Assembly: GCA_021234155.1 (NCBI GenBank)
Contig: JAJEKV010000330.1
Location: 124,001-188,000 of the forward strand
Reading direction: 5' to 3'
DNA length: 64,000 nt
Source of the DNA: Isoetes taiwanensis
Lineage: Eukaryota > Streptophyta > Lycopodiopsida > Isoetales > Isoetaceae
Part shown: piece after piece, positions 6,860 through 51,049 of the stretch
Layout of the letters: each line of letters opens with the position of its first letter
Position numbering within the stretch: position 1 is the stretch's first letter
Made by a program: the position numbers and the translations under genes
The notes under the pieces: model-generated
The model's database searches: none
Told to the model about the DNA's origin: nothing
The model's input: the letters and a program-made list of their open reading frames with translations, nothing else

Positions 6860-8200
6860 GTTTGTCCGATGACTTAACATGTAAAGAACGTAAAGTGTGT
6901 GATGAGTGTTTGTCAAAATGTCCTATATTTTTGACAATTTTGTTCATAATTTTGTACAATTTTCACAACCTTGAATATATCACTTCTTTATCAATCTACT
7001 ACCCTTGCTATATTTTTTATTGCCCCTTTTTTGCTACACTTTATATAAGTAACTATTTTTGTTCTAAATTAGAGGATGAAAATTGCTATTTAAAATTTTT
7101 GCATGGAAGTTATGTTCAATCAACCCCTCAAAAATGGTACCTAAATTACCTAAATTGTCGACCGGTCAAAAAAAATCTTAAAAATGGACTTTTAGGGGAA
7201 TTTTAGGAATCTTTCAAAGATTCCTTTGAAGTGCGCTTTGAGCAAATAAGTGCTTTTCATTTTAAACTTTGTTCCAAGGCATTGTTCCTACTAAGACATT
7301 ATTCCCCGCTTCGCTTTTACCAAAAAGCATTATCAAAACTAGATTGCAAACCTTTAATTGCTCCTCTATATTCTCAAGGGAAAACATGCAAGAAGCTTAA
7401 AAACATCTTAAATCTTCTCGCCTCCAGCCTTCATTCGCCTCGATTTTATTTTTGTTTTTTTCCGCCACAAAGAAGAAGTTGAGATCACCGTAAACACATT
7501 GATTCATTTACTAGTACGCCATATATGGGATATTTACCCTTGAGAAGATGGCACGCCTCAGAAGGCACCGGATTATTGTTACTTATTGGCTTTCTCCTTA
7601 CCCCGCTTAATATTTTTTAGCAGCAGCCCATGTGGTATGAACATCCACATCTTTCTATCTTTTCACTTTTTGCTATCGCTAGTTACATGGTTTTCTTTCT
7701 TTTCAAGATTCAGGTTCCTCCCCCCACACATGATTTTTCTTACTTTGGGCATTGCAGATATACCGCAAGGGTTGAAAGAAAGTTCGCAGGATGGGCATCG
7801 GGCCAAAAAGGCTACAGCTTGAAGAAGGATATGGATTTATGGGGGGGCGTAAACTATCTTCGGGTTAAGGATTGCCGGGTCTAAAGCAAAGAATAAGTGA
7901 GATTTTTTTTTTTTTGTTTTTCCCCATCTTTTAGGGCCTATAGCTTTTGAACATAAAACTACCTAGCAGACATGGCGTAAATGGTGGCAATCTTTGGTAT
8001 GGTGTCTTAGGTGAAATGCACCATCACATTGTTAGCAAGCTACGTTTAACTTGGATAAAGGTTTAAGTTTTCATCCGAACAAAGGAATCAATGTTCAAAA
8101 CATTGAAAGCTCGAACTTAGGCTTAAAAAACTATAAATAAGAATAAAAACAAAAGACTTTAGAAGAACTCTATGCTTATAAAATTACTATGCCTCATGGA
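6860..8200. other. No recognisable gene, AT-rich downstream region
   Basis: After the acidic C-terminus of the transposase relic the sequence becomes AT-rich with poly-T runs (for example 7896-7918). Several short ORFs (near 6862, 7231, 7630) have no family features. I see nothing further that can be supported. Confidence 0.5.
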
Positions 8201-15694: not shown

Positions 15695-16460
15695 ATAAAA
15701 GTGATGATGTGATGTGTGGTGTCGCGGATGGTGTGGTGTGGTGTCGGATGATGTGGTGTGGTGGTGTGGGTTGCGTTATGTCCATGGTGTCATGTGGGTG
15801 TGTGCATGTTAATGTATGACATGTGTGGATTCAATTTTATTTATTCTCCCCCTCACCCCACCACACCCCATCTATCCCACCACCATAGACTACCACCACA
15901 TCTTTGCACCACCACATTACCAACACATGCACACACATCCCTGGCACCACATCCCATGCCACACCCCCTCCACCACCACCACCACCACACTCCACCACCA
16001 CCACATCACACCACAATCCACAACACCACACTACACCACCACCACTACACCCCCACCACACCCACCACACACCACCACCACCACCACCCACACCCCACCA
16101 CCACACTCCACCACACCACATCATACCACCACACACCACTACACACACTACTACCACCACCCCCACCACACCACACACCACTCCACCACACTCCACCACC
16201 ACCACCCCCACCACCACGCCCACCACCACACACCACACCACACCTCCACCACCACCCCCCCCACACCCCCACCACCACCACACACCACTACACACACTAC
16301 CACACCACCACTCACACTCCACCACCACCCACACCCATCATTTGGTGTATGGTGTGTGTGTGGTGGGGTGTGGTATGGTGTGTGACTAAGGTGCTCGCTC
16401 GTGAATATGATGAGTGTGGGGCATGGTATGGTGCATGGTTTGGTGTGGTATACACATCTT
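15695..16460. repeat. Very long CCA/CAC-type compound microsatellite
   Basis: The left edge (15700-15790) is GTG/GGT-rich on the plus strand. From about 15840 to 16335 the plus strand becomes almost pure CCA, CAC and CACACC units, and the strand bias flips back to GTGTGG at 16335-16450. The repeat has no stop codons in several frames on both strands, which produces long artificial His/Pro/Thr or Gly/Val/Trp ORFs. It is compound, with blocks CCACCA, CACACT and ACCACC in varied order. Confidence 0.95.
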
Positions 16461-26351: not shown

Positions 26352-26590
26352 ACACTGTGGTGGTGGTGGTGATGGTGGGGTGGTGGTGGTGGTGGTGTGT
26401 GTGTGGTAGTGGTGGTGGTGTGGTGGTGGGGTTTGGTGGTGGTGGTGGTGGTGGGGTATGGGTGGTGGTGGAGTGGTGGTGGTGGTGGTGGGTGGTGGTG
26501 GTGGTGGTGGTGGTGGTGTGGTGGTGGTGGTGGTGGTGGTGGTGGTGGTGGTGGTGGTGGTGGTGGAGGTGGTGGGGAGTGTGGCATGGG
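26352..26590. repeat. GGT/GTG microsatellite
   Basis: About 240 bp of almost pure GGT with occasional GTGTGT and GGGTT interruptions; the purest block is 26525-26570. Produces artificial Gly/Val/Trp or His/Thr/Pro ORFs on both strands. Same unit family as the 15.7-16.4 kb array but in complementary orientation. Confidence 0.95.
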
Positions 26591-31737: not shown

Positions 31738-33095
31738 AAGAAAGAGTAGCCCATGCAAGAAGAAGCCCCTCCTCCGCATGAGATCAAAGAATAGAAGCCA
31801 TGGATACCGGCCGAGATGAAAAAAGCCCGGATGAAACGCCGATGAAGAACTCGCAATAAATAGCGATCCCCCAACCCCGATGAACGGCCTAAAAAATGTG
31901 GGCGCGATGCATGCATGCGACGCACGCAATGCATGCATGCTCGTCTTGTGCAAGAATGTCGATCCGCTACGCGAATCAATGACATTATTGTAATGTCTTT
32001 CTTTTTTGTATGTTTCCTTAATTCGTTTGTTGGTTATGTGTGGAAGAGGTGATCTTCAGGTTTATCAATGCAACGTGGCAATGTGAATGGAACGTGCCAT
32101 TCATAGATTTGTGCCTAGGGATTATTTGTTTGTTCAACACAAAAAATCAATATGGATTTTTCCAAGATTGTTCTTTTGTTTTATGTTGTTATTCTTTCTT
32201 ATCTGGACTTTGGGCCTGGCATAGGCATTTAAAAATGACGTTACAATATAAACAATGTGCCTTACATAGAATGGCACGTGGATCCTGAATCATTCTAAGC
32301 CTGAATCCGGAATCATGCTAAGCCCATCTGCATCTAGCTATGCAGGCCTTGTCTTCCTGCAAAACCAAGAATGAAACATTTCTAGGGTCTCCCGCCCACT
32401 AGAAGCCCATGGCTCTCAATCTGCCCCGTACATCATGACTACCAGTACACAAGCCACCCCTTGCTGGGAAAGGGGAGCGCATGCCCTGCTACATGTTAAG
32501 CAAACTACCACAAAATCTTCAAAATAATTGCAGACGGATTATGAGGAGTTGCTCCACTCAATAGATCTTATTCTTGCCAACTCCTGGCATCTGCTCAAAG
32601 AAAGTTTACAGCCTAGTACTAATAATGGAAGCAGCGTCTTCTTCTTCCTTACCATAGTACTATAGAAGAGCATCACTTCTTTCCAGCCTTTGCCTTTTTG
32701 CCCAGACTTTAAAGATCCCTTCCGAAAAATGTTCTAGCAAAGGTTTCTGTACTAGCAGTGCTCTCCTTCTTCCTTAGGCGGTGAATACTATAGCTATGCT
32801 TACATTGTTTTCCTGAAAACTGTATGACCTTCTCCCAGTCGGCATACTAGAAGTAACCAAGAAAAGATATATCTTAAATACAGCTCCTCCCCATAACCTT
32901 GGCCACTAACCTGAGGCACAGCTCCCCTGACCGGAAATCTTGTGGAAGATGCTGAAATATGCAGCAGAAAACCAGGTATGCCGTCCTTGCCAAGCAACAC
33001 AGAAGCCCCTGGATCGTTAGAAGCTGAAAGATAAGGAAGGAAGGCTTTCCTGATTAGTAGCACAAAAGGGAACAAAAGAGTGGAAAAACCCAGCT
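31738..33095. repeat. Module U (first copy)
   Basis: 1358-bp unit, nearly identical to 33935-35260. Starts AAGAAAGAGTAGCCCATGC and ends AAAAACCCAGCT. Relative to U' it has a 27-bp extra segment near 32138-32165 and other small changes. It includes paired ATGCATGCATGC palindromes. An 82-codon frame (32040-32288) and a 99-codon minus frame (32800-33099) are open in both copies, but I recognise no domain in them. Confidence 0.85.
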
Positions 33096-33934
33096 GCATA
33101 GAACCGATTCCTGCAGCCCTGTTATCTGAAGTGCAGATCCCTAATGGCCCTCCAGCAGCTTGCCAGAAAACGACTCACCAAGCAACAGAGACGGCCACAA
33201 CCGTCTCCTACTTTTCGGCCAAGAACTTGGCCGCCATCACCGGCCCGTTTTCATCCACTTTTTCCACTATTTTGCTGGATTTTGTTTTAAAAGTCTAGAC
33301 ATAGATGTGAATGGAAAATTATTTTAAGGTTATTGAAAAGTTAAGTGAACTGAAGCTGAAGTGCCCAATACCAAAATGAAACGAAAGCGTAACAAACATG
33401 TGTCGAGTTGTGATGCAACAAATGTAATGGCAAAACTCCATTGCAAGTTTGTATATGTGGTTGCACCTTTTTAACCCAAGAGCTAGAACGCCAAAAGCTG
33501 CAACTATAGTAGATGTAACTTTAAAATTTAAGGAATATGCAATCTACCACAGAAAAAGAGCTACAACAGCCTAACTCATGGGGATGCCATAGTCTCATGA
33601 GGATGTCACAGTTTAGTTGCATGATGAGGAAATAATACAATAGAACATACCCTCTAAAAGTTGTGGTGCATTATCACCACCACAACAGCTAGCAATGGAT
33701 AAAACAAAAGGCTTGCATATGCGGCAAACAACATTGAAAGTTGAGTTTCCAAAACGCATCTATCTACCATTGGAAAGTAGCCTCCCAATACTTAAGACAG
33801 AACTTGCCTGTATGCTTCAAATAATCTTACCTCATAAAGGATTTGAAATAGAAGTCGAAGAATTGGTGCTTGCAGTTGTTGTTAACATCAGTCGTGCCCA
33901 TTTCCTTTCCACAATAAAATCATCTCCAAGCACA
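33096..33934. repeat. Module A (first copy)
   Basis: 839-bp unit homologous to 45441-46301. Starts GCATAGAACCGATTCCTGC and ends CATCTCCAAGCAC. Joined directly to U on the left and U' on the right. No gene recognised within it. Confidence 0.85.
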
Positions 33935-35260
33935 CGAAGAAAGAGTAGCCCATGCAAGAAGAAGCCCCTCCTTCGCATGAGATCAAAGAATAGAAGCAAT
34001 GGATACTGCTGAGAGATGAAAAAGCGTCGATGAAACGTCGATGAAGAACTCTGCAATAAATAGCGATCCCCCAACCTGATGAACGGCCTAAAAATGCATG
34101 CGATGCATGCATGCGACGCACGCAATGCATGCATGCTCGTCTTGTGCAAGAATGTCGATCCGCTACGCGAATCGATGACATTATTGTAATGTCTTTCTTT
34201 TTTGTATGTTTCCTTAATTCGTTTGTTGGTTATGTGTGGAAGAGGTGATCTTCAGGTTTATCAATGCAACGTGGCAATGTGAATGGAACGTGCCATTCAT
34301 AGATTGGTGCCTAGGGATTATTTGTTTGTTCCAAGATTGTTCTTTTGTTTTATGTTGTTATTCTTTCTTATCTGGACTTTGGGCCTGGCAGAGGCATTTA
34401 AAAATGACGTTACAATATAAACAATGTGCCTTACATAGAATGGCACGTGGATCCTGAATCATTCTAAGCCTGAATCCTGAATCATGCTAAGCCCATCTGC
34501 ATCTAGCTATGCAGGCCTTGTCTTCCTGCAAAACCAAGAATGAAACATTTCTAGGGTCTCCCGCCCACTAGAAGCCCATGGCTCTCAATCTGCCCCGTAC
34601 ATCATGACTACCAGTACACAAGCCACCCCTTCTCGGGAAAGGGAGATGATGCCCTCGCTACATGTTAAGCAAACTACCACAAAATCTTCAAAATAATTGC
34701 AGACGGATTATGAGGAGTTGCTCCACTCAATAGATCTTATTCTTGCCAACTCCTGGCATCTGCTCAAAGAAAGTTTACAGCCTAGTACTAATAATGGAAG
34801 CAGCATCTTCTTCTTCCTTACCATAGTACTATAGAAGAGCATCACTTCTTTCCAGCCTGCCTTTTGCCCAGCCTTAAAGATCCCTTCCGAAAAATGTTCT
34901 AGCAAAGGTTTCTGTACTAGCAGTGCTCTCCTTCTTCCTTAGGCGGTGAATACTATAGCTCTGCTTACATTGTTTTCCTGAAAACTGTATGACCTTCTCC
35001 CAGCCGGCATACTAGAAGTAACCAAGAAAAGATATATCTTAAATACAGCTCCTCCCCATAACCTTGACCACTAACCTGAGGCACAGCTCCCCTGACCGGA
35101 AATCTTGTGGAAGATGCTGAAATATGCAGCAGAAAACCAGGTATGCCGTCCTTGCCAAGCAACACAGAAGCTCCTGGATCGTTAGAAGCTGAAAGATAAG
35201 GAAGGAAGGCTTTCCTGATTAGTAGCACAAAAGGGAACAAAAGAGTGGAAAAACCCAGCT
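33935..35260. repeat. Module U' (second copy)
   Basis: Second copy of U, ending AAAAACCCAGCT exactly where the inverted-repeat-bounded 10.2-kb insertion begins. Carries the same minus-strand open frame (35240-34965) as the first copy. Confidence 0.85.
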
Positions 35261-35285
35261 AAGCACGATTTCATTAATTGGAGAA
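35261..35285 (+). repeat. Left terminal inverted repeat
   Basis: AAGCACGATTTCATTAATT followed by GGAGAA. Pairs with 45411-45435. AGCAC-type motifs recur just inside this end. Confidence 0.75.
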
Positions 35286-35373
35286 AATAAGCCCATTTTG
35301 AGAATTTTAAGCACACCTAATTTGCTCTAGCACGAATACTTTCACCTACTTCTCGAGCACAAGAAACATGAGG

Positions 35374-35432
35374 TAATTAACATACACATATACATACAAA
35401 TACACATATACATACACATACACATATACTCG
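35374..35432. repeat. CATACA/CATATA microsatellite
   Basis: Run of ACATACACATATACATACAAATACACATATACATACAC-type units near the left end of the 10.2-kb element. Confidence 0.9.
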
Positions 35433-35440
35433 TAGAAGCT

Positions 35441-35674
35441 CAATAATGGCCCTACATTGTACACCAATAATTCACATCAATAATTTAACTTCACTATAAA
35501 AACGGCTTGACGAGGGGTAGAGGCCATTCATCTTCCATGGCTTCCTCGATGCCCCTTCGAGCACATCCGCTCTTTCAAGTGTTACTTGAGCTACAACGAT
35601 CCGGGCTAATGCGCTTAGAAATGGCGTTAAGCTTGATCCATGGCTCTTATCTAAAGCCGATGGACACCGCTTAG
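35441..35674 (+). CDS. Promoter module 1 and 45-codon ORF
   Basis: CAATAATGGCCCTACATTG, then CCAATAATTCACATCAAT and CTTCACTATAAAAACGGC (TATA box TATAAAA near 35494), then an ATG at 35537 and an open frame of 45 codons (MASSMPLRAHPLFQVLL...) ending TAG at 35672. The upstream block is duplicated at 36041-36138. Downstream frames remain open for some distance in another register (LDPWLLSKADGHRLVLARK), so the gene may be longer and frameshifted. Product unknown. Confidence 0.35.
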
Positions 35675-36040
35675 TGCTTGCGAGGAAGCTCACTTTCGTG
35701 TTAAAGTCCACATTTCGGCTTCGATCGGGGAGATCTATGAGTGAATGCCATCCACGAGCTTTGATGTTGATGACGAAAGTGAATGACCGCTAATAATGTA
35801 ATAATGACATGGGTACCTAATAACTAAGTAAGGATGTAATAGCATTACGATTAAGGATGTAATATCACGTACCTTAAGCGAGTATATTGTAACGATGTGC
35901 TATCCCACCTCCACTTTTTACGCAAGTCGTCATTGAATTCAATCATAGCTAAATTCGGCAAGCAAACATGTTTTCAAACACACGATATACTAGTATGAAA
36001 TAAGTATTATTCTTGTACGTATATAACGATACCGATACAC

Positions 36041-36323
36041 GTTCAATAATGGTGAACTCTACCCCAATAATTCACCTCAATCATTCCACTTCACTATAAA
36101 AGCTTCTCAGTTCGGGGCTACATTTCATTCATCCCCCATGGATTTCTCGCCTTCTTCGATTCACCACATTGAGGCGATCAAGTGCTCAATGAGCCACGCA
36201 GATCTTGTTGGTTGCCTTGACAGGCATCTTCTTCTTGATCCCTACCCTGAAGAAAAGCTTTGGGCGAGATTCATTGCCCAAGCGTCAATTAGGTGTTATG
36301 ATCCATCTGATTTGGCTTCCTGA
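36041..36323 (+). CDS. Promoter module 2 and 61-codon ORF
   Basis: A second copy of the promoter block: CAATAATGGTG, CCCCAATAATTCACCTCAAT, CTTCACTATAAAAGC (TATA box near 36096), then ATG at 36138. The frame MDFSPSSIHHIEAIKC ... LLLDPYPEEKLWARF ... DPSDLAS ends at 36323. The LLLDPYPEE stretch parallels LDPWLLSK in module 1 at the same position, so the two are diverged tandem paralogues. I do not recognise the family. It could be a small cargo gene of the transposon or the first exon of a longer one. Confidence 0.45.
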
Positions 36324-36516
36324 GCGCATGAGCTATGAGATATCAGGGATCACTACTACAAATCCTGAAGATGAATGAATCACCTGTTTGGCATTGTATA
36401 GTGTAAGAGCTCTTGTGTTGAGATGAAAAACACAAAGCCTAATGAATAATAACTAGTCTATTGTAAGGTGCATGTCATGTATGATATAGTAATTATGTAA
36501 AAGAGCATTGCATACC

Positions 36517-38990
36517 TCAAGAGTTCTCATCCTCGTCGTTAGCTTCTTTAGCCACCAATTCTTGCAACTGAGACCTCACACTACTGGGGATCACTGCTGA
36601 CAACGGCCTGGTCCCTACGGCCCAACCATAGTCTATCGTTTTCAAATGTTGGTAGCGTGGTGGGTCATTAGGATTCGGTCTCCAATTCTTGCTCCAACAA
36701 TCCCTATACTGCATTGCATATGAGGTACCCTTTCTTTGCAATGGGCTCAAACCAAGAAACAAACACCTCTTCATAGTGAGGGAGATTAGGGTCCTCTACT
36801 GGGTCCTCTTCCGCAAAGGCCATCCACGTCGGGCAGTTATCATGTGGCCTGATCAGCAAGAGCATTCCTTTCTTCACATCTTGGTAGGGGTCGAATATTT
36901 CAACAGGGTTCTTGGGTCTACCAGAGAAAGGCCCGACATAATGAGATGCACCAATGTGTTCATCCACCAATAAGTTGTCGGGTTCTTCTAATGCGGTTTA
37001 ATGCAGTCTTTGGGCCGAAATCGAATGACAGTTCTACCGGGTGAACGTCCCCAAGCACTTTCGCAACAAAAGGTGGACCAGTAGTCAATAACTTCATTCA
37101 TATATGTGTTAGACCATGAGTTATCGCCGGCTCTAGAAATAGCTGCCTAGTGCATCATGTACTTGGCAATTGAAGCTCTCAAGGCACCTATATCTGTCAA
37201 GCTCTGATATGGCTGCACGACCTTAGGTGACCCTCTAGGAATCATAGGTAAGCCTTGGGCATCCTCCTTCCACATTTTAATTCCCTTTTCAGGTAGCCAC
37301 TCCCTATGCCCTGGCCTCATCTTGTAGAACATTAGTGGCCATCCATCATTCATGCAGAACTTGAAGAGTAGAGGTTCCAAATGACCACATAAGCGGTCCT
37401 TCTTATCGGGGATAAAACCTTTCACGAATTCTTTCGGTTGGGAACCTCGGACACAAGGTAGGGCGTAGGAGACTTTGAACTACACTTTGCCGAAGAGTTG
37501 CATAAGCTCCGAATAGTCAATGCATCGATCTTCTCAGCAGAGTGGAGTAGTTTCCAAAGAGGGCATCTATGTCATCGTGGGTGTGTCCAACCATCATGAA
37601 TCCCGGTTGCACTGATCGAAGACACCTAACGGACCAAATATGACAAGTAAGAGAAAAAGATACCTGTTCTTGTTTTGTCACGAGCAATTGTCTAGGCAAG
37701 CAAGTAAAGCCTCCTAGGCAACTTCTTTGGTATCAGAGGGCCCTTGATAGGAGGCATAAAATCATTTCTAGTGCCATTCACCATTTTTGTCCTAAGGGCT
37801 TCCGTGTTCATAATTGCTCCACCCCAGCAGCTCCCTTGATGATCTGTATTTCTCAAATGACCCCAGTTGTCCTCAGATTGATTCTCTAGTGTTTTCAAGG
37901 TATGATTTAAAGATCCCACATGAAAATTCGAATCATCTGGCCAGAGGTCCAGCGAGAAGTGCCCCAAAGCACCTACACCATGCCCATGCATGAGAGCACC
38001 AGTAAGACTCACCTTCAACCGTTCACCCCTCCATACAGATTTTGCTAGCTTCTCCAGACGAGGAACCATCGTCTTATTCTGATCCATCTTATCATGTATA
38101 ATGGTTAAGGCATTTCAAGGAGATCGATGAGACAAAGCTCTCCACGACCCGGTAGAGACTCCTGCAGGAAAGTTGGGCTGTCATGTGAGATTTCCTTTCC
38201 ACGGCGAGCTCTCTTCTTTCTCTTGGATCTCTAGTCTTGGCAAGTTTCTCCTTTATCACAATACAGGTATTACACTTAGAAAATGCTATTCTTTTGGCGA
38301 TTGCTACCTCAGAGTGGTTCTCCTTCCACGTTGACAAGAAGGACGATTGAGAAACATGTTTTCCTGTCATGTCGTGGGCGGTTATATCTACCTCTTGATG
38401 AATGTCCTTTTTAGTCAAGATGGAAGGTAATCTCTTCACATTTTCTCTAGTTCCCCCTTTCGTAACCTTTGGCGGTGTGGCATAGTTTGACATTCTCATC
38501 TATGTACATAGATAGCCACGGCACCTCCGGCCGATTGTATGAGACCTTGGCTTCATGGACCCGGAGTTTCCATGCTCCGCAATCCTGTGCCCTTCCATGA
38601 AAAGCTTCCTCCATTTGTAAAATGTAGAAACTGGTATACCGTATGCACTATGCCATGCCTTCACACAGACTACCCTGTTGTTCAGCATTAGCTTTTTCAC
38701 ACATCCATTCTACGAACAAAAAGATCTAGCATGTTATGCGCAAAAAGTCGTGCGTTACGAGCTTTTCATGTTCGATAGAAGGTCCTCATGGCGGATATCT
38801 TCTTTAGCTGTGAAATTAGCACAACATCTCTTCAAGCGACACATGGAGGGACTGAGCGCAAGATAGCTTGGTGTGGTTTTCCTTTCACCTTTTTTTTTTT
38901 GGGGTCGGCGTCCTCTGCGCCTTCTGTTCACCATGTGGTGCTTGTCTTTTTTTGTTACTCCAGCCTCGGGCACGGCGGCATAAGCTTCCT
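36517..38990 (-). pseudogene. DUF7869-like transposase, family 2, nearly complete
   Basis: Minus strand, N- to C-terminus. A basic, cysteine-bearing start (MCRLKRCCANFTAKEDIRHE, 38860-38800) is followed by the segment KLMLNNRVVCVKAWHSAYG and IPVSTFYKWRKLFMEG (38700-38590). Then comes a linker with NYATPPKVTKGG and KNxC-type residues FSKCNTCIVIKEKL (38290-38240). HDKMDQNKTMVPRLEKL at about 38095-38045 is the first-aspartate block and LMHGHGVG follows. MMVGHTHDDIDALFGNY (about 37600-37545) is the invariant VGHTHEDID block. A C-terminal frame PVEIFDPYQDVKKGMLLL runs to an acidic stop at 36517 (ANDEDENS). One stop or shift separates each block, roughly four in all, at places where indels would restore the frame. 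Expected length is near 750 residues. Likely role, inferred: transposase of the surrounding TIR element. Confidence 0.65.
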
Positions 38991-39880
38991 TCGACCTCGG
39001 TCTCCTTCCGCGGCCGTAACTAGGCTAAGCTGGAATATTGTCAGCGAGAACCAATGCTATTGGCCATCTCACCAAGTCATGCATCGTGGCATTTTGCACA
39101 AGCAGCTTTGTGAGCATAGTAATCTTCTCGGGCATTGGCAACAAATTGGTCTGAAACCCCTATCCATGCTTCACCCAACTTCATATCCGGATCTGACATC
39201 GTTTGGATCTCGAAAGCGATGATTTTTTGTAGCATAAGCGGTTTGCGACTTTTCGTGCATTAACTCACATGTCTTTTCCACTAGTTTATCCCCGCAAATC
39301 CCACGCAATTCAATTGGTTCATTGTTTCCTTCCGGGGAGTTTCTTTGGAACTTGCCAATTTATCCGTTTGATCGACGGTGGTGTGCTAACATCGGTCTTT
39401 GGAGTGATTTCATCATGAGCGTAAACTTTTGGACCAAAGAATGAAGCTACCTTGACCTCCTCTAGGTGGTTCAATTAAAACTACGGAAGCGGCGGTGGTA
39501 TCGCCCATCAAAGACAGCGACTAGAGAAACTACTATCAATTAAATCGACGCGCGGGGCGTTGTGGTGATTTTTGAAGTTATGCACTCGCCCTCGACCACC
39601 TTCTTCCCCAGCGGGTAGAAAGGCGTAGAGCTTCCATCTGAATAAAGTCAACAACGCTTTCGTCAACATCGCGATGGCGTCGTTGGACCTCATTAGAAGA
39701 AAAAAATGCGTACTCAAAGACCCAAAGGGACAACATAATACCTCGGGGGAAGATCGCCAAAGGGAAGGCGATTCTCTTGAACACATGGGTATAAATGGCG
39801 GAAGCACAAGACAGCGGCGGTAGGGGAGATGGCGGCGGCGATCCATCCGACCTCTATGGTGGACCTTCAATCCTTCAAAT
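38991..39880 (-). other. Possible N-terminal extension of the transposase
   Basis: Upstream of the cysteine-rich start the minus strand has short open segments including RGICGDKLVEKTCELMHEK (about 39300-39245) and SQTAYATKNHRFRDPND. They look protein-like and in the correct orientation but are separated by stops. No domain recognised. Confidence 0.35.
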
Positions 39881-41630
39881 CTACCTAGAAACTTTGTCTA
39901 ATCTAACTAACCATTTAAAAACCACCTATCTACTAGACTTACCTCGAAAGATGCATAATCGCGATTAATTTGAAATAATCTGTGTCGCTATATAGCTGCT
40001 ATGCTCGGGATGAGCGCGTCGCGATTCTTTCATGGAACATCCAGAGCGGTGGCCCGAGCAAAAATAGATGCTTGAGTAAGTCTACGCCAAATCAAATGTC
40101 TATGTGAATATTAATTTAAATTTATTATTTCCACAGCGAAAATTGCTGTCAGTTAATTAAAATGGAGATCTCGTGAATTGAGCATTTGGGAGCAAAACCA
40201 TTAGCACTACCATTAAGCGAGAACCATTATATTACCGTGATATTCCCTCACTATCAATTAGTCCAGAAATAAACAATTCAATTGGGCCTCGCTAACCGGA
40301 TTATGGGATCCACGAACGGCATATACCAAGAAAGAGATGGTGCATATGTTGTTATGGTTGTGAGGGCACTATTATAACCTATACATAAACAACAAATCGA
40401 AAATCTCTCACGAGATTCGACAACTTCTAGGCTATTTGGATAGGCGGTAAGGCATTAGGATTTTGTACCCGGTAGCTTAGAGTGAAGGCGCCTTCAAGAT
40501 GAGCACTATAGCCCGATGGCGGATCGAGCGCCTCAAAAAACCAACGGCGCCCGGACGAGAAGAGCGGCGCCTTCGAACACCTGCTTTCGATTACAAAGCT
40601 GGAAATCCCGCCCTCTTCATCGGCCTTGAAATTCAGGTTTAAAATTTGAAATCGAGTTGTCTCTTCGGGCCTTCAACCGGCGCTCGGAGGCGTCTTAATT
40701 ATGGTTAGTAGGGCCTTTATTATGTACATTTTTTGAATTTGGAGGTGCGACCGGAAGTACCTCTTGTCAGGAGAATGCCACGTTTACAATAAAGTTGTTG
40801 TGTGTCCATTAATACGGGCTGCATTAATGGTGGGTATTTATGAATGCGGCCGTATTAATGGCTGCCATTTATGGCGTGTCGGCTCATGCGTGCGGATTAA
40901 ATTAATCCGGCTTCCAGGCCGATATTTATTCTCGCGATCCCTTGGACTTTCATTAGCCCGGCGATTTCGGTGGCCTTCCGCGATTCCAGCGCCGCCTCCT
41001 CGGCGCCTTCCACCACGGTCGAAATCAACCCGTTTTCGAAAGTTTCCAGCCCGGCGATCCATGGCACCAAAAGCCCACCTCGGAAGGTTAGTTCCAACCC
41101 CTCGGCTCGAAGGGTCGCGGTAGCGATTTCTTTCGATAGTGCATGTTCAATTAGACTCTTCACCTTACCGTAATGTAGTCATTAGAAAGTGCGGAACTCA
41201 AGGAGGATGCTGCTCGGTGGTCGGACGGATCGGCGTCGCGATCTGCTGATTGCTCGGTAGCGGTAGCGGCGCGATCGTGTTAGTGGTCAACAACATCGCG
41301 GTCGCGATCTTCTTGACTTGACTCACCACTGCCGGCTATTTGCGATCTTCTGAATCACTCATGAGGATGCGGTCGCGATAAAATCAAAGCGATGATTGGC
41401 GCATCACGGAAGAACTTGTGCATTACGGAATCTTGACCCACTTCTTACTTGCGACTCTGGATTTGTATCAGCGGCCGGACGTTGAACCCAATAAGATCAT
41501 CACACCTTCAAATGAAAGAAAGTGGTGTATAGAAATTGCGGCGAGGCAATTCCACGGACGAAAGCGACCGTAGTAAAGACCTCTGCTTGTTCCTCGGGGT
41601 GGCAAAGCCGATGACATCTCAGCGGATGGG
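39881..41630. other. No recognised gene; GC-rich patches with repeated GCGGTCGCGAT
   Basis: Between the two gene-bearing parts of the element. The string GGTCGCGATCT or a variant occurs near 41231, 41297 and 41371, and inverted phrases of GCATTAAT/ATTAATGC occur at 40808-40870. Short ORFs on both strands (for example 40764-41123) show no family motif. Confidence 0.45.
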
Positions 41631-41632
41631 AA

Positions 41633-44600
41633 TTGCAATCGCTATGTGGGAAGGAACAAAAACAATGTCAAAGGCGCTATTATATGCGGCGTAGAGGACA
41701 CCACGAGAATTTGCGGTTCATTGAGTATGTCCTTAAATGGACAAACTATGATCCCTCGCTCATGGCGGCTAGCAAATTAAACAAGCCGATCCTTTGGAAA
41801 GAATGTTGGCCGGTCACGAAGGATCTGGTGAGTCCCTCTGAATCTGTCTCACATGCGGAATATCCGGGCAATAGGGATATATTGTCGGCTTCTCGACATC
41901 ACGAGAAAAGGTTCTTGAGCGGATAAGAAACCACCTAGCATTGCTTTGAAAGCTAAGCGAGATGAGAAGATGCCTTACGTAATGGACACGAATTGGTTAA
42001 GGGCTCGGTGAAGAAAAAACATGTGAAACTGTATCTATAGGGAGGCCTCTAGAACCCGAGCCCTCTCGTTGAGCTGTTTCCTTTGCCCAACCATCTAACG
42101 TTATAGATCTGCTCAACCTCGGCTATTTGTGCTCCCCCTCATTGCCTAAAGATTCTACCATCCCAAAGTTCGGAATCAAACTTCGGCAAACTCAATACTT
42201 CGATAAATGAGAACCTTCTTCTTCCAACAAGTCTCGGGTCTTTGATCGTCCAAGAGGCTAGCATTTCCTATTATACAGGCTGCAAGGCGGACCTCAAATT
42301 CAATCAAGAAGAAGCGCAAATTGCTTGAACAATTCAAGCGGTTCTATCCGGCTTGGTGTGGCCCCGGGTTTATGAAGGTTTCAATATTCGATTGCGAACC
42401 AGCTCACTGCTAACCTCACGCGCCGAATGCGTTCAAAGCGACCCGTCGCGGACTCTCGTGAAGAGTTTCAAGGCGTATCCTACGGAGGTGCTCACACCGA
42501 TGTTGTCCCCGCCGACCCCATTACCGGTGATTGTTATTGTTCATGATTTACGGTTTGTGGTACATCTAACTTACAAGTGCACATTATTTAGGAAAAAGAT
42601 CACATGGAGTCTGAGAGGATGACTTGAAGGGCAAGAAATTTTGGATAATATCGGTAACCACGGTATATGTGCGGCTCAATTTGCTATATTTGTATTGTTG
42701 GAGAAGCGGGAGCGGCGGATGGGTTTGCTAAAGCCTCTGGCGAGGAGAAAAACAAGAGTGCTTAGCGGAAACTTGGCCAGATAGAATATATTGAGTTGAG
42801 CATTGATTGCAATGAAGTCGCCGCTAACCTTGTATATAGAGAGCCATTGTTAGAGAAGCTTCATGACTCACGACATCAACATAAAAGCGTATGGTTGTCC
42901 TCCTCAAAGGTCCCATTGAATGCGCCACCACCTCGGCATGGAAGGTATTTTTATTATCTTTGCTCAAAGACGCCCGGCGATTTTCCCTAACCATTTGTTT
43001 TGTAGGACTTCCACGAGATAGCTACCACAGCGTTGAAGGTGAAGGAGCTAAGGGCGAAGCAATTTATTTTTATGGAGGAGGCGGGTGTTGAGAAAGTTAA
43101 TGGAAGTAGCCATGGATGGGTCAACAAGAAGATTTGTGATGAGCATGGAGATTTTCACGATAAGCCCTCGAAGGACTTCTTCAACAAAACCTGGTTAAGA
43201 TACCTTGAGGCATGTCTATCACGAGAGGCTTCTCGGCTTCTCGATGAGATTTTGGAAGGAAAGACATATCGTTAAGGTGCAAAGCGGATATCATGGCAGG
43301 TTTAATTGCGGGCGCCATTGATATTAGAAGCGACCTTCATGCGGAAAGAGATTTTGTCATACGCATCCGCGCTTGCCGGAAAGATTACACATTTTGGGAG
43401 GAGTTGCTTTTCGACTTTCACGATTTCCGGAACGGTGGTTACGGATATATCGATTCGGATCTGATACGTGAAAGCAAATTACAATAAGGAGCATGTTGTG
43501 GGTAATTTGCCGTTGCATTTCTAGAACCCATTAGATCGATTTTGAAACCTGAAGAGGCTATAAAGATCAAGGAGAAGAAAAATGTTGTGCATCTTTGTAA
43601 CAAAGGAAGGGATTCCCACCTCCCACTCCGATTAATGCGAGAATGCAACTATGGTGTTCATAGACTTTAGAGGATTCTGCATTGTGGGCGTGCAAGAAAT
43701 ATATGGAACTCTTCACAAGAATATCCGGCATGACAATTTGCTAATATTTATCACCTTGTCATTCTAATGCGGTGCGAATTTGCGTTTGCTTATGCGATAA
43801 AAGCAATTCAAGGCGGGTCCCATATTTCTGTAGGTACATATGACGAGCGGGATGGGTGAACAAGAAAGGGTGAAGGAATATCGATATTACATCACCCATA
43901 TGTGCGTGCTGAAGCGACTCGGGGTGAGCGATAATGCGGGCTGGAGCTTCGTTTGAAACCGCAGTGTGTACTGCACCAAAGAAAGCGCCCTTGCCACCAA
44001 TGCATCGGTGGTAGCGAAGATCTTGATGAGAAAATGAAGAAGAAATGGCGGACATATTTCCGCGGGTAAACCCGGTACAAGTTTGGCCGGAATGGAAGGT
44101 GAATACGTGATGAAGTGCGGATAGAAGACATCATATGCCTACTACACGGTTGACAAGCTTGTGCGAAGGATAGTTGTGTTCTTGATTTCTTCTGGCCAGT
44201 GCTTGCTCTCATTGTCGTGTCCTTCTTGCCGGGGAAAGAAGAGTATTGCTTTACCGAAAGCGAATTAAAAAGTGTGCCGATTTACGAGGGCTTTCTTGGA
44301 TAAGCTTCGAAAAAAAAATTCGAACGGTATTTGGGGAGGCAGATAGCGAGGATAAAGGCGAGAGCGAGAATGATCCTCATCGCGATCAATTTAAACATTA
44401 CCCAACGAGCGGATATATCTAACATCGATTCAATCTTGGATCAAATGGATGAGAAAAGCTACGAGGAAAGAATCACGGGAAGCGAAAAGACTTAGGAGGC
44501 TAAAGAAAGGTATTCTTCTTGGCTTGGGCCGATGTTTCAAAAATTAGGGGCTCTAAATGAAAAAATTGATGCCTACATGCCTTTTTTGACAGGCGGTCCG

Positions 44601-45058
44601 GAGTTCGAATCGTAGGTATGGTCGAGGGACCTGCGGATCAAGAGGGTGAGCCATCGGGCACACAAGAGCATCGAGGTTCGGCAAAGAAAAAAAAACCAAA
44701 CTCTTCCATGCACCCAGATATCGCATGTCTTTGGCGAGTGAAGCCTTGGATGTCGAAGGACCCCCATGGAATCTTGACGACGAAGGACCGGATCCCATGT
44801 CCAACTCCTTGCTTGAGGCCATGTACGTAGAAATCCCGGATAAACAGGCTACTTGAGATGGACCCGAGAAGATGTTTTACAAAGGGGCGAGGAACATGTA
44901 GCTAGGATAGGCTGGCGAGAGCTCGGTGTTGTACACGAGGCGATGCTCGGAAACCCGGATGGACTAATTTACGCCCATATGGCAAAGAAATGTACATTGA
45001 AATGTTTGAGGAATACAAATTACAATGCTTTGAGTTTACTATTTGGTTATTTTGTCTA
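41633..45058 (+). pseudogene. Long unknown plus-strand gene-like region with a probable 61-bp intron
   Basis: A string of open segments, all plus strand: NLRFIEYVLKWTNYDPSLMA (41710), a segment ending WK at 42944, DFHEIATTALKVKELRAKQF (from 43006), FFNKTWLRYLEACLSREASR (about 43180), MAGLIAGAIDIRSDLHAERD (43293), and YTFWEELLFDFHDFRNGGYG (43386). Sequence 42945-43005 begins GTATTT and ends TTGTTTTGTAG, and removing it keeps the frame (ATTSAWK|DFHEIATT), so it reads like an intron. Later segments (43.5-45.0 kb) have KSxP-, KKK- and EEYC-type stretches. I recognise no domain. It lies within the 10.2-kb element and is oriented opposite to the transposase. It may be a second element gene or captured cargo. 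Frames shift every few hundred bases. Confidence 0.4.
42945..43005 (+). other. Probable intron of the unknown cargo gene
   Basis: GT...AG boundaries with a T-rich 3' end (CCATTTGTTTTGTAG) and frame continuity across it. Sixty-one bases is short for a plant intron but possible. Confidence 0.4.
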
Positions 45059-45410
45059 AACATTCCTTCCCACGACAACTCACAATGTTAAGCCACCGCG
45101 ATCCTCATTATCACTTTCAATTCTTTTTTATCCATGTGAAGAGCTTAGCGGAATTGTAATATTACATCCATGGCTGCCTAGGCAGCTTCAAATCTTCGCC
45201 GTGGCGATCCTGGCTGAGTGTTTTCACTCTTTCACGTGGACCGCTCTTGCTCAGAAGGAACTTAGGATAGCCTTATACATGTCCAAATCGGATCGTCGTC
45301 ATTGTTTGTGCCCAAAAGCGGCGGAAAAAAGCGATCAACTTTACTCGGTGCAACCATTTGCGGTGTTTTATAACACCAAGAACCTATTTCATGCTAAGCG
45401 AGAATTAAAA

Positions 45411-45435
45411 TTCTCTAATTAATTAAATCGTGCTT
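45411..45435 (-). repeat. Right terminal inverted repeat
   Basis: Reverse complement begins AAGCACGATTTAATTAATT then AGAGAA. Two mismatches against the left end over 25 bp. Confidence 0.75.
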
Positions 45436-45440
45436 ATTTT

Positions 45441-46301
45441 GCATAGAACCGATTCCTGCTGACCCTGTTATCTGAAGTGCGGATCCCTAATGGCCCTCCA
45501 AGAGCTTGCCAAAAAGCGACTCACCAAAAGCGAGGCGGCCACGGCCGTCTCCTACTTTCGACCAAGAACTTGGCGCCATCACGTTTTTTTTTTTTTTTTT
45601 CATCCACTTTTCCACTATTTTCTTTGGATTTTGTTTTTAAAAGTCTAGGCATAGATGTGAATGGAAAATTATTTTAAGGTTATGAAAAGTTAAGTTAAGT
45701 GAATTTGAAAATTTGAAGTGCCCAATACCAAAATGAAGCGAAAGCGTAACAAACATGTCGAGTTGTGATGCAACAAATGTAATAGCAAAACTCCATTGCA
45801 AGTTTGTATATGTGGTTGCACCTTTTAACCCAAGAGCTAGAAGCCAAAAAAGCTGCAACTATAGTAGATGTAACTTTAAAATTTAAGGAATATGCAATCT
45901 ACCACAGAGAAAAAGAGCTACAAACGACCCTAACTCATGGGGATGCCATAGTCTCATGAGGATGTCACGGTTTAGTTGCATGATGAGTAGGAAATAATAC
46001 AATAGAACATACCCTCTAAAAAGTTGTGGTGCATTATCACCACCACAGCGACTAACAATGGATAAAACAAAAGGCTTGCATATCGCGGCAAACAACATTT
46101 AAAGTTGAGTTTCAAAAACGCATCTATCTACCATTGGAAAGTAGCCTCCCAATACTTAAGGCAGAACTTTTTGTATGCTTCAAATAATCTTGCCTCATAA
46201 AGGATTTGGAAATAGAAGTCGAGAAGAATTGGTGCTTGCGGTTATTTATTAACATCGATCGTGCCCATTTCCTTTCCACAATAAAATGCATCTCCAAGCA
46301 C
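45441..46301. repeat. Module A' (second copy)
   Basis: Homologue of 33096-33934, separated from U' by the 10.2-kb insertion. Differences concentrate in homopolymers and at CAG/CTG sites. Includes a pure T run of about 17 near 45584-45600 where the first copy has ordinary sequence. Confidence 0.85.
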
Positions 46302-47690
46302 AAATCATAGTTGGCATTGAGATTGTACATCCTTCTTGTATAAAATGGCGGTCCATAAAAGCATGAAGTCATATCCATTTAGAAAACAAACCATTGATAA
46401 GCTCCATTAATGAGATCAATAGCTTTCTTTTAAAAGAAATGGACTGCATGAAAAAACACAAAGCAACCCTATCATTGCTTCAAATCCACTTAAACAAACA
46501 AAAACAGACATGCTCCATCTACACCAAAAGAAAGTTCAGGGCAAGGGTGCTGGCCTATGAGCTAGAAAGCATGCAATCTAAATCCCTTCTTAGGATAAAG
46601 ATCTCCATTTATTTATATAGTTTGCAAAGCGGGCCATGAATAACTTCGGGAAGAACTCAAGAATGCTACCAAGATCAACATCATCAGCCAAAAATAATAT
46701 GTAGAGGTGCATAGGCATCCCAATTGGGCAAAAAATATCATATTATAAAATGAACTTAAAGATGACCTCATTTAGCCTCGGCCTTGGCATTTACGTAAAA
46801 CAAAGTACTAAGATGATTTAAATATCTAAGGCCCATAGCATGGAATTTTTTCTGTTATATAAAAGGCATCCATGCTTAGAACATAGCTGTCAAAAATTCC
46901 TTTTCTAACCTTAACTGTAGACATGAATTGGATCAGAGCTAGAGAATCGTTCTAGACCCAAGATCCTCGTTTAAGCCCATCCTCCAAAACCTAGCAAAGG
47001 AAAGGCCTTCAGAAAATAAAGCATTGATAAAAAAACAAAAAGCTTAACCGAGGAAACACAGCTAAGAATACTGAGCTTGCATGAAAAAAAACTTGAAGAA
47101 GCCTTGAAGAAATGAATTTGTTGAAACATAGAATCGCAGGCCCTAATGCTGACAACCACCTTTTCAAATGCCTTTGGTAAGAAGACCATTCAAGGGAAAT
47201 GAATCGAATATTGCATGCCAACAACCACGATTCTTCAAATTAGAGGCCCACTCGCTTTATCAGAAGCGAAGCATTCAGGAAAAACAAAAAGCTTTAACTC
47301 TTAGGAAGTAGGTACCCAAGCCCATCTTAATTGCGGATACAAATCTAAGATAGCCATGAGAAAATTTCACGGATGGGCAAGGCTCGCGACTGAACCTCTA
47401 AGCGAGGCATGCTAATGCAATTTCTACCTATGAACGAGGGCGGAATGAAAGGGCCTTCAACTCGGCATATCCGGGAGTCCGGATAGCGAGTAGATCAAGC
47501 CCTTGTCGGTTCATCACCATTAATATTGCCAAGCGGAAGAAGTCTTGCGGATACGTACCAATCGCTAAGGCCACCACCAATATGGATCATCTCCTTCTAT
47601 CTCCAGGCACCCCACAAAAGCCCAGACTGCACCAATGCATGCTCTATCATTTGGCCATAGCTTCTCTAAGGCCCTTTTCCACATTAAGTC
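46302..47690. other. No recognised gene
   Basis: AT-rich stretch with short ORFs (for example 46394-46639 plus, 47224-47009 minus) and no domain or repeat structure I can support. Confidence 0.45.
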
Positions 47691-47832
47691 ATAAAATATG
47701 GGCATCATATACAATATATGACACTATTTTCGACTCAGGGGCTAAAATGAGACACACAAATTTAAACTTATTTTCCATTTGCATGGTAGTCATAAAATGT
47801 GATACCACTAAAAATAGTATTGGAAAACCATG

Positions 47833-47943
47833 AAAAAATAAGACCACGTCTTATTTTTAGTCATATTCTAAATCCCAGGAATAAAATAAGACTCAATTTA
47901 CAAATCCAAACGCATTTCAACCTAAATAAGACATGTCTTATTT
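47833..47943. repeat. Pair of AAATAAGAC palindromes
   Basis: Near-palindrome AAAAATAAGAC-CAC-GTCTTATTTTT at 47833-47858 and perfect 20-bp palindrome AAATAAGACATGTCTTATTT at 47924-47943, with one more AAAATAAGAC at 47883. A MITE core or overlapping inverted-repeat ends are possible. Confidence 0.6.
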
Positions 47944-48172
47944 TTATAGTGTAAAAGTGATTTTTTTTTTAGGACAATAGGTGGCCAAACATCATTTGAT
48001 AAAATATGTGACTTTTGTAAATCGACTACCGTGGAAAAGGGGCCTAAAAGCGTGGAAAAGCCTAAATCGAAGCAAGAATAAAAAAGGGAGCTATGTGGAC
48101 CATCTAATTGTGCGTCAAATTTGTGCGTCGGATGTAGGAGTGGTTCAAGACACACCCTATAACATTATAATA

Positions 48173-51049
48173 CTAGTAATATATAGTGCCCGGCGTTCGG
48201 GCAAATGTCGAACATGTCAATGATAAAGCAAAAAAGAGCATAAGTAGGTGGTATTTTTATTTACTATGATAGCGAAAAACCTAAATAGTGATATAGGAAG
48301 CAAGTCGTGTAGTTAGTGTTGTTGGACTAAGTTGGATAACATGTAATTAAAGTTTTGTGGATTCTACGTTAGATTGTTGTTGAGAACTATGTGCATGATC
48401 CCCAAATGTCTAAGTTTACATTTTAGCATATGGTGCGTGTTAGCACTATCCAATGCCATTTTATATTTTACGTATCTTCTTTCCCCTTGGGTGAAGAAGT
48501 TTAATGACCCAGATAAGATGATTGAGAAAAAGTTATTGATGTGGTGTAGCAATCATTTGATAACTTCTTAGATTGGAAAGCATTCACAGTCTCTTTCTTA
48601 TTATTCCATGTGATCGTCTATTTTTTATTCCATTGAATCTAGTTGGAATAAGTAGTGAACCATAATAATGAATTGTGGCTTTTTCGACTCTTATGGCAAA
48701 ACCATTTAGTTTGGAAATTGAATCAACTATGCTTTTCTAAACAATCTCACATGGTCTATTGCTATTGTAAGGATGGTGATCATACACTTGTCACTTCTTT
48801 TAAGATGTTTTCATGTTTCAGGATTGTGATCACACACATTATTACTTTATTTATTTTCATAATTGTGATCATATACATATTATCACTTTGTTGACCATCA
48901 TGGAGAAAATGGTCCAGCAACATCATGAGTAGTTCCGAATCTAGCGACAAAGGTGCAACTAGGCTTTTACACTAAGGCGTTTTACACAACTTATACGCTT
49001 CTAGCAACAAAGACAGGAACTACAATCCTTCTTATCGTTTTTTTATTATCAAAGGTCAACATTTAGGCCAGACCCCATGATGATCTGCTAGTATAAAAAT
49101 AAGAGTGTCACCTTCTTGAAAATCCATGCACTAAACACCTTCTTGAAGATCCAGGCATTAAACTTTGCTTAACAATAAATGACAGCATGTAAGAACCTAA
49201 CTGAGCTAGGAAGCAAAGAAAGCATAAACCGCAACCAATGTCATACGGTTACGGCGAGAAATGGCTATAATTGCAAAAGAAAGATCATAACATTGGGAAG
49301 CCTAAACAATCAACTGACGCATGCCGAAGCTGCATGCCTTTGTTCAATAGATTCATTGGTAAATGGTTCATAAAGTTACAATTTAAAATGGTAGCAACTG
49401 ACATAGGTAATATACTTGAAATTTGAAAATGATAAAATCACGTACACGCTGATTGGCTGCACAACATGTATAGCTATAGTACATGATAATTTACAAAGCC
49501 TAGAATCATGTCAAAAGATTGTATATGATGTCTAAATATTTCCATACCTTCTGCTTGTGAACACTTCCAAATTTCATAAAAACAATACATAATTTCTATC
49601 ATCCAACAATTCAAAATAAGTTAATCCTAGTTGAGATATTAAGAAGAATGCATAACCTTCTTAAAAGTCATAATGCAGCATTCTGACACACTACGTTGTT
49701 GTAAAGAAAGAATACGTTTGGTTATAAATATTTTCAAACTAGAAACAAATCTGCCAAGGACTGGCAAACAGAAGATTGTTAGATACATCTTGGTCGATAA
49801 TGCAGGAGAAAATACAATTTTGCAAATGAGCTAACTGACCTTCATCTATATCCATAGCCACTTGTAGCCATTTTGAAATGCAGAAATTGTCCAGTATAGC
49901 TGAGTCCTTTTCACCTAAAGAATTGCCCAATGGATCTGCAAACATAGTGTATAACCCTATTTTCAGAGGCAGAAAGCATGGCCAGGTCTCCAATAACCGA
50001 CTCACCAAGTACTCCTTTGCTGGACCCATCTAGATTTACCTTGCCCATTCACGTTTTGTAAATCTGGGCTGCAAGCCCTAGGATGATCTTGCTCTCCATA
50101 CTATATAATACATATCAAATGTTCGACTTTTGCATCAAATGATTTACATTAGACAGTGCTAAAAAACTTGATCTTTCCATGCTTCCACATTTTATGTGCA
50201 TGTTTTAGCTGTGTATATGCAAATCTGCATAAATGGAGCCTTTGCGGATGCTTGATATCAATAGGGTATTCACATTTCCTACATCAAGCAATAACTCCAA
50301 GCTAAAGTTTTCTTATAACAAAAGAAGAAGAAACAGGGCAAAGCTTTAAAATCGCATACCTTGTAACAATCTATCATGTGGGCTTCATATGCTCTGCTTC
50401 AATCCCTATTTCCCAAAGAAGGTTGGGCACAAAAACCCTTTGCACAAAACCCAAATTATTTAGATAAGGCCTGGCTTTAAGAAAAAATCCGAAATGAAGC
50501 CTTCAGAATAAACTCGAGACTTGAGATATGTTGCCTTCAAAATTGCAGCATGTGAATGGCTGCCAGTCCTTGCACTTGCTCTGCCAAGCAAACCCAATCA
50601 TATTCATGATTTTAGGATTTAGTACGATTTTAGAATTTAGAGAAACTCAAAAGCATACATTTTACCTCTTCTTGCCACAACTCTCTGGAGACTTCAAAAA
50701 ATTAGACTCGACCCTGCATAAATTACCACCAAAACTTATTACAATTCCTATGCTCAAGTTTTAAATTCTGATATCCAAGCTTCCTAATTGGCGTTTCCTT
50801 TACTTTGTCCAAAGAAAAACTTGATAAACATCACAATTTGCAACACCAAAGAATGGGCACATGGGGAGGTCTACGGGAAGCGAGCTGACAAACCGACGCC
50901 ATCGCCACTTACTTTGTGTTTTAGGGTAAAAAAAAAGGGTGAGTTTCGGATCCGGAGCCGTTTAACTTTTAACTAAAATTTGGGTCGTTGGATCTAGGGC
51001 TGGGTCCAACACTTACAATAAAAACTTTATAATATAGGATAGGATAGGA
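48173..51049 (-). mobile_element. Non-autonomous Helitron 1
   Basis: Read on the minus strand, the 5' end is a TCCTATCC-type sequence at 51049-51039 preceded by A. The element continues with TTATAAAGTTTTTATTGTAAGTG. The 3' end at 48173 is CTAG followed by T, preceded by a hairpin at 48203-48187 (TGCCCGAACGCCGGGCA, stem TGCCCG/CGGGCA) 11 bp from the end. TC start, hairpin and CTRR 3' end inserted between A and T are the Helitron hallmarks. No RepHel coding seen in 2.9 kb. The interior holds an open minus-strand frame at 50029-49739 that could be captured sequence. Confidence 0.7.

Follow-up and report, generated by a model that had tools for sequence, protein, structure and literature searches.

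The window analysed here, 64,000 nucleotides of Isoetes taiwanensis (contig JAJEKV010000330.1, positions 124,001 to 188,000), carries a 10,175-bp insertion that is very probably a member of an abundant cut-and-paste DNA transposon family, here called family 1, whose minus-strand gene would encode the transposase, with an RNase H-like region classified as DUF7869. Established are the exact ends of the element, insertions with differing flanks, 4-bp target site duplications (TSDs), a DUF7869 gene adjoining the ends, and a single insertion of another family that is built alike.

Ends, copies and target duplications of the insertion

A module of ~2.2 kb is present in tandem duplicate in the window (31738-33934, then 33937-35260 plus 45440-46302), and the element splits its second copy, so that the first retains an empty site and the insertion is delimited on the window sequence. 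A reading made earlier from the sequence alone had placed this empty site at 33095/33096, and the alignment of the module copies bears it out, at 95% on one side (31738-33095 against 33937-35260) and 90% on the other (33095-33934 against 45440-46302). The differences between the two module copies are substitutions and numerous small insertions and deletions. The ~25-bp inverted repeats of the same reading are likewise present: arms at 35260-35285 and 45411-45436 are complementary at 92% of 26 nt, sit precisely where the second module copy is split, and have their counterparts in other copies, comparison with which sets the exact ends at 35261 (AAGCACGATTT) and 45435 (AAATCGTGCTT). The left end thus stands as proposed, while the right end lies at 45435 and not at 45440.

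The genome (1.66 Gb, 1110 contigs) yielded 1638 left-end candidates, and all of the 40 that were scored, the window among them, match at 93-100%. The right side was fetched for 20 copies picked among the best left-end matches, and 16 of them have the exact right end (L009, L011, L012 and L017 do not). Each of the 16 copies with both exact ends has identical 4 bases at its two flanks (AGAA, GCTA, AATG, ATTT, AGTC, CAAT, TATT, TAGG, GGAT, TTAT, TAAG, ATAT, TGTA, AGCT, TAAA and TAAA), TSDs that are A/T-rich but have no letter fixed, and the 30-bp flanks of these copies are visibly different. The termini of other copies and the target duplication, both of which the sequence-only reading had left to be checked, were thereby recovered. 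In the window the right-hand duplication is damaged, with ATTTT in place of AGCT, so the TSD is unreadable from the window alone; a copy in C103 (L026, L039) is inserted at the same AGCT site with both AGCT copies intact. Over 3.8 kb its right flank runs collinear with window 45440-49275 (93%, 97 gap openings), the right element halves are 87% alike, and the copy probably represents the window locus on another haplotype or else a duplication. Noisy contigs are, besides haplotype and duplication, a possible source of the likeness between C103 and the window.

Features of the family-1 element in the window
Feature	Position	Strand	Basis
Whole DNA transposon, family 1	35261..45435	- (that of the transposase gene)	16 further copies with the same two exact ends; tandem module with empty site
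Left terminal inverted repeat AAGCACGATTTCATTAATTGGAGAA	35261..35285	+	Arm pairing; comparison with copies
Right terminal inverted repeat TTCTCTAATTAATTAAATCGTGCTT	45411..45435	+	Arm pairing; comparison with copies
Left target duplication AGCT	35257..35260	+	C103 insertion at same site has AGCT on both sides
Right target duplication, damaged (ATTTT; AGCT in C103)	45436..45440	+	Comparison with C103
Empty target site AGCT, first module copy	33092..33095	+	Module alignment
Promoter-ORF (open reading frame) module 1: TATAAAA box and small gene	35495..35780	+	80 residues in L007; frame broken in window
Promoter-ORF module 2: TATAAAA box and paralogous small gene	36095..36375	+	80 residues in L002; frame broken in window
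DUF7869 transposase gene, broken in window	36610..38844	-	Read-through with 5 stops, 11 frame changes
Putative catalytic core with acidic residues: HDKMDQNKT (b1), CLDNC..QNKN (b4), VGHTHDDID (helix)	37523..38102	-	Alignment; predicted fold of relative P0002
Large accessory gene, class not assigned, broken in window	41403..44964	+	tblastn of copy-derived protein; open frames in other copies

The probable DUF7869 transposase and the other genes of family 1

A minus-strand transposase of ~750 residues with HDKMDQNKT and VGHTHDDID blocks had been anticipated, and 12 minus-strand frame segments (38844-36610) do give a 742-residue read-through that contains both blocks and matches Pfam DUF7869 (PF25273) at E 4.3e-25, its 88.9 bits lying above the gathering cut-off of 26; a single piece of the transposase taken alone reaches 23.8 bits, just under that cut-off. 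Named relatives among the protein matches, which have the same domain and conserved blocks, include two mosses (Ceratodon, Physcomitrium), a liverwort (Riccia), a fern (Ceratopteris), a green alga (Cymbomonas), a coral (Montipora) and a bivalve (Solemya), the closest being those of plants. Database entries for these proteins bear labels such as hypothetical or DUF protein and come with no element ends, whereas the window family has defined ends. No mention by name of DUF7869, PF25273, DUF8039 or PF26133 was found in the literature searched.

For the relative P0002, structure prediction gives an RNase H-like order of elements with a long helical stretch between b3 and b4, and a domain set composed of a Tudor/KOW-like domain, the RNase H-like core and a BAH- or MazF-like domain. 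On this model the DUF7869 region would be an RNase H-like nuclease with conserved acids D479 and D660 (P0002 numbering), and the third would most likely be D702. Residue 702 is D in 168 of 170 rows; the third acid is nevertheless likely rather than proven to be D, because residue 699 is also mostly D or E (125 and 36, respectively, of the 169 rows listed). The RNase H-like core that the sequence-only reading had suggested looking for is accordingly predicted, with D rather than the expected E as the likely last acid. Mos1 and Sleeping Beauty transposases and retroviral integrases, which have target rules of their own, would have this catalytic fold in common with DUF7869, but DUF7869 differs from them in its last acid, most likely D, in the long helical b3-b4 stretch and in its other flanking domains.

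The two promoter-ORF modules reported earlier prove sound: two TATAAAA boxes lie at the left end within a ~110-bp duplication (73%), each followed by a short frame. In L007 and L002, where they are unbroken, the frames code for 80 residues apiece, and their products can be aligned over the full length with no gap, at a score reached by none of 5000 shuffles. Both genes are present in all 8 left ends examined by tblastn, with frame changes in several, the window included, and few intact. The plus-strand gene in the right part, divergent from the transposase gene and encoding ~1100 residues or more, is also real, since other copies have stop-to-stop frames of 547 (the longest, in L016), 395, 360 and 312 codons there; its protein has no match in any of the libraries searched.

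Variation was compared across the left ends of L002-L008 and the right halves of copies from L009-L028, each time together with the window. All 8 aligned left-end copies agree throughout their first 200 bp and vary beyond. Across 14 copies of the right half, substitutions, deletions and insertions amount to 0.135, 0.060 and 0.035 per site and copy at CpG, and to 0.041, 0.007 and 0.008 more than 20 bases from CpG; the foremost changes at CpG are C to T and G to A, but others and indels are raised there too. Methylation decay or read errors at methylated sites could each produce this clustering, and because they fit alike the window copy is not claimed as a true pseudogene; the clustering bears on pseudogene calls in this assembly.

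A second family and further DUF7869 loci

In C1007 a family-1 copy is interrupted after element position ~5399, and family-1 sequence resumes directly beyond an insert (L011 from 240, into L045) of 13,075 bp with perfect 32-bp inverted ends (AACCATCATTCAATTAAATTGGGATTATGTCT), flanked on both sides by GTTG, a 4-bp TSD read from this one insertion. The insert encodes a distinct DUF7869 protein (tblastn E 5e-83 with P0004), whose gene adjoins one end and is transcribed toward that end, as in family 1, and the ends of the two families are alike beyond shuffled controls (21/5000 and 7/5000). Its right part scores 33.6 bits for the NIF (FCP1-like) phosphatase domain PF03031, whose cut-off is 21.8, and holds further unassigned frames; nothing in this element corresponds to the family-1 accessory protein (best tblastn E 0.28). 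The tie between DUF7869 loci and such ends that the sequence-only reading had proposed holds in two families, both from one genome and the second known from one insertion, but at L044 and at window 5146-5731, which are DUF7869 loci as well, no ends were recognised.

The latter (+) is another DUF7869 gene in the window, decayed and from a different lineage, with the blocks DGMD.KKTTLPHF, LDNTTRENKN and VGHTH. Upstream of the intact 987-codon DUF7869 frame of L044, the palindrome AAGTGTATTCCGGAATACACTT recurs at least five times within 7351-7661, along with partial copies, and may form an operator or transposase-binding array. The DUF7869 gene of L043, on a contig filed under a Synechococcales bin of which it is probably a plant contamination, is preceded by palindromes of the type TTTAGCTCGA.TCGAGCTAAA and followed by a partial one (34-137, 486-514, 3821-3838). 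Elsewhere in the window, 15959-16329 and 26357-26575 are long imperfect CAC/GTG trinucleotide arrays.

Superfamily placement, alternatives and significance

Excerpted descriptions of Sola elements give a DDD transposase, a 4-bp TSD, lengths of 2-9 kb with some over 15 kb, terminal inverted repeats (TIRs) of 11-1124 bp and occurrence in the moss Physcomitrella (PMC10741241), for which Sola1 is also listed in a table (PMC9033089); SOLA elements occur in the fern Azolla (PMC6786969) and, among the molluscs studied, Sola is found in bivalves only (PMC10294476). The DUF7869 elements resemble these descriptions, and are likened to Sola by description only, in their 4-bp TSD (16 of 16 family-1 copies, and GTTG in the family-2 insertion), TIRs (~25 and 32 bp, of variable sequence) and lengths (10,175 and 13,075 bp) within the ranges given, and in hosts, the DUF7869 matches including the moss Physcomitrium, the fern Ceratopteris and the bivalve Solemya; a DDD transposase would fit as well, should the third acid be D, as is likely. 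They differ in their BAH/Tudor-like domains, small genes and large cargo, features absent from the excerpted Sola descriptions. On balance we favour membership of the Sola superfamily, with some confidence, in which case DUF7869 would be the Sola-type transposase domain. Of the earlier suggestion that these elements could define a superfamily, the TIR element with a DUF7869 transposase and small genes of its own stands, but a new superfamily is not established, the features agreeing with Sola.

Kolobok, piggyBac, PIF/Harbinger and CACTA elements fit less well. An excerpted list of superfamilies gives TTAA as the Kolobok target duplication (PMC9587614). None of the 16 TSDs here is TTAA, as would be expected of Kolobok or piggyBac. 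PIF/Harbinger elements have a 3-bp TWA duplication, a rule that the 4-bp TSDs do not follow. Academ and Chapaev elements have TSDs of 3-4 bp. CACTA (EnSpm) elements, with a CACTA/G terminus and TSDs of 2-3 bp, are alike in large size and cargo but differ from the DUF7869 elements, whose ends are AAGCACG and AACCATC and whose TSD is 4 bp; the N-terminus of the relative P0004 has a weak TNP1/EnSpm (Transposase_23) match (E 0.023) below cut-off.

That the DUF7869 elements form a cut-and-paste superfamily separate from Sola, having arrived at 4-bp duplications independently, is a less likely though serious alternative, in keeping with the want of any mention of the domain by name in the literature searched, of any Sola transposase name among the protein matches shown (most of them without a name) and of the predicted domain set in the excerpted Sola descriptions; against it, those descriptions are matched in TSD length, element size, TIR range and hosts, and probably in a DDD triad. 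Such a superfamily might, tentatively, be pictured as a main class of transposable elements of non-seed plants, with green algae, corals and bivalves also within its range: elements of 10-13 kb whose DDD transposase is flanked by Tudor/KOW-like and BAH-like chromatin-reading domains, 4-bp TSDs, related AA[GC]CA..ATT ends, paired small TATA-driven genes, and an opposite-strand cargo slot that swaps genes between families (NIF phosphatase against an unclassified ~1100-residue protein). It is improbable that the ends are served by another, unseen transposase with DUF7869 as cargo or passenger: the large gene of unassigned class or either small gene could in principle be a recombinase, but DUF7869 keeps its place and orientation in two families with different second genes, its model is integrase-like with conserved acids, and the accessory protein of one family is unmatched in the other. 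Least probable of all is that the element is defunct and owes its copies to segmental duplication, a picture to which the broken frames and the insertion site and collinear flanks shared by C103 and the window would lend themselves, but which is contradicted for the family by 16 copies with differing 30-bp flanks and each its own 4-bp duplication (longer flanks were compared for C103 only).

On the preferred reading, that of a cut-and-paste family with a DUF7869 transposase, the transposase would bind the ~25-32-bp ends and excise the element, which would then be joined to a 4-bp staggered cut at A/T-rich sites; the Tudor/KOW-like and BAH-like domains may serve to read chromatin or to tether the enzyme to it, transposition may be helped or regulated by the two small genes, and the large plus-strand gene may be captured or accessory cargo, perhaps through host gene capture. 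With a second family of the same build, DUF7869, a domain of plants, algae and animals without a named function, gains defined ends and a likely function, and DUF7869 genes are predicted to lie within elements that have inverted ends of ~25-32 bp and 4-bp duplications. A first look gave 9901 DUF7869 candidates in the 1.66-Gb genome, of which 150 were scored, a count suggesting that elements of this kind may make up a large, poorly annotated share of some plant genomes, where they are catalogued like any other gene. Should the BAH-like domain prove real, the elements may be selective for chromatin, and the link between DUF7869 and Sola, if confirmed, could allow curators to name many proteins.
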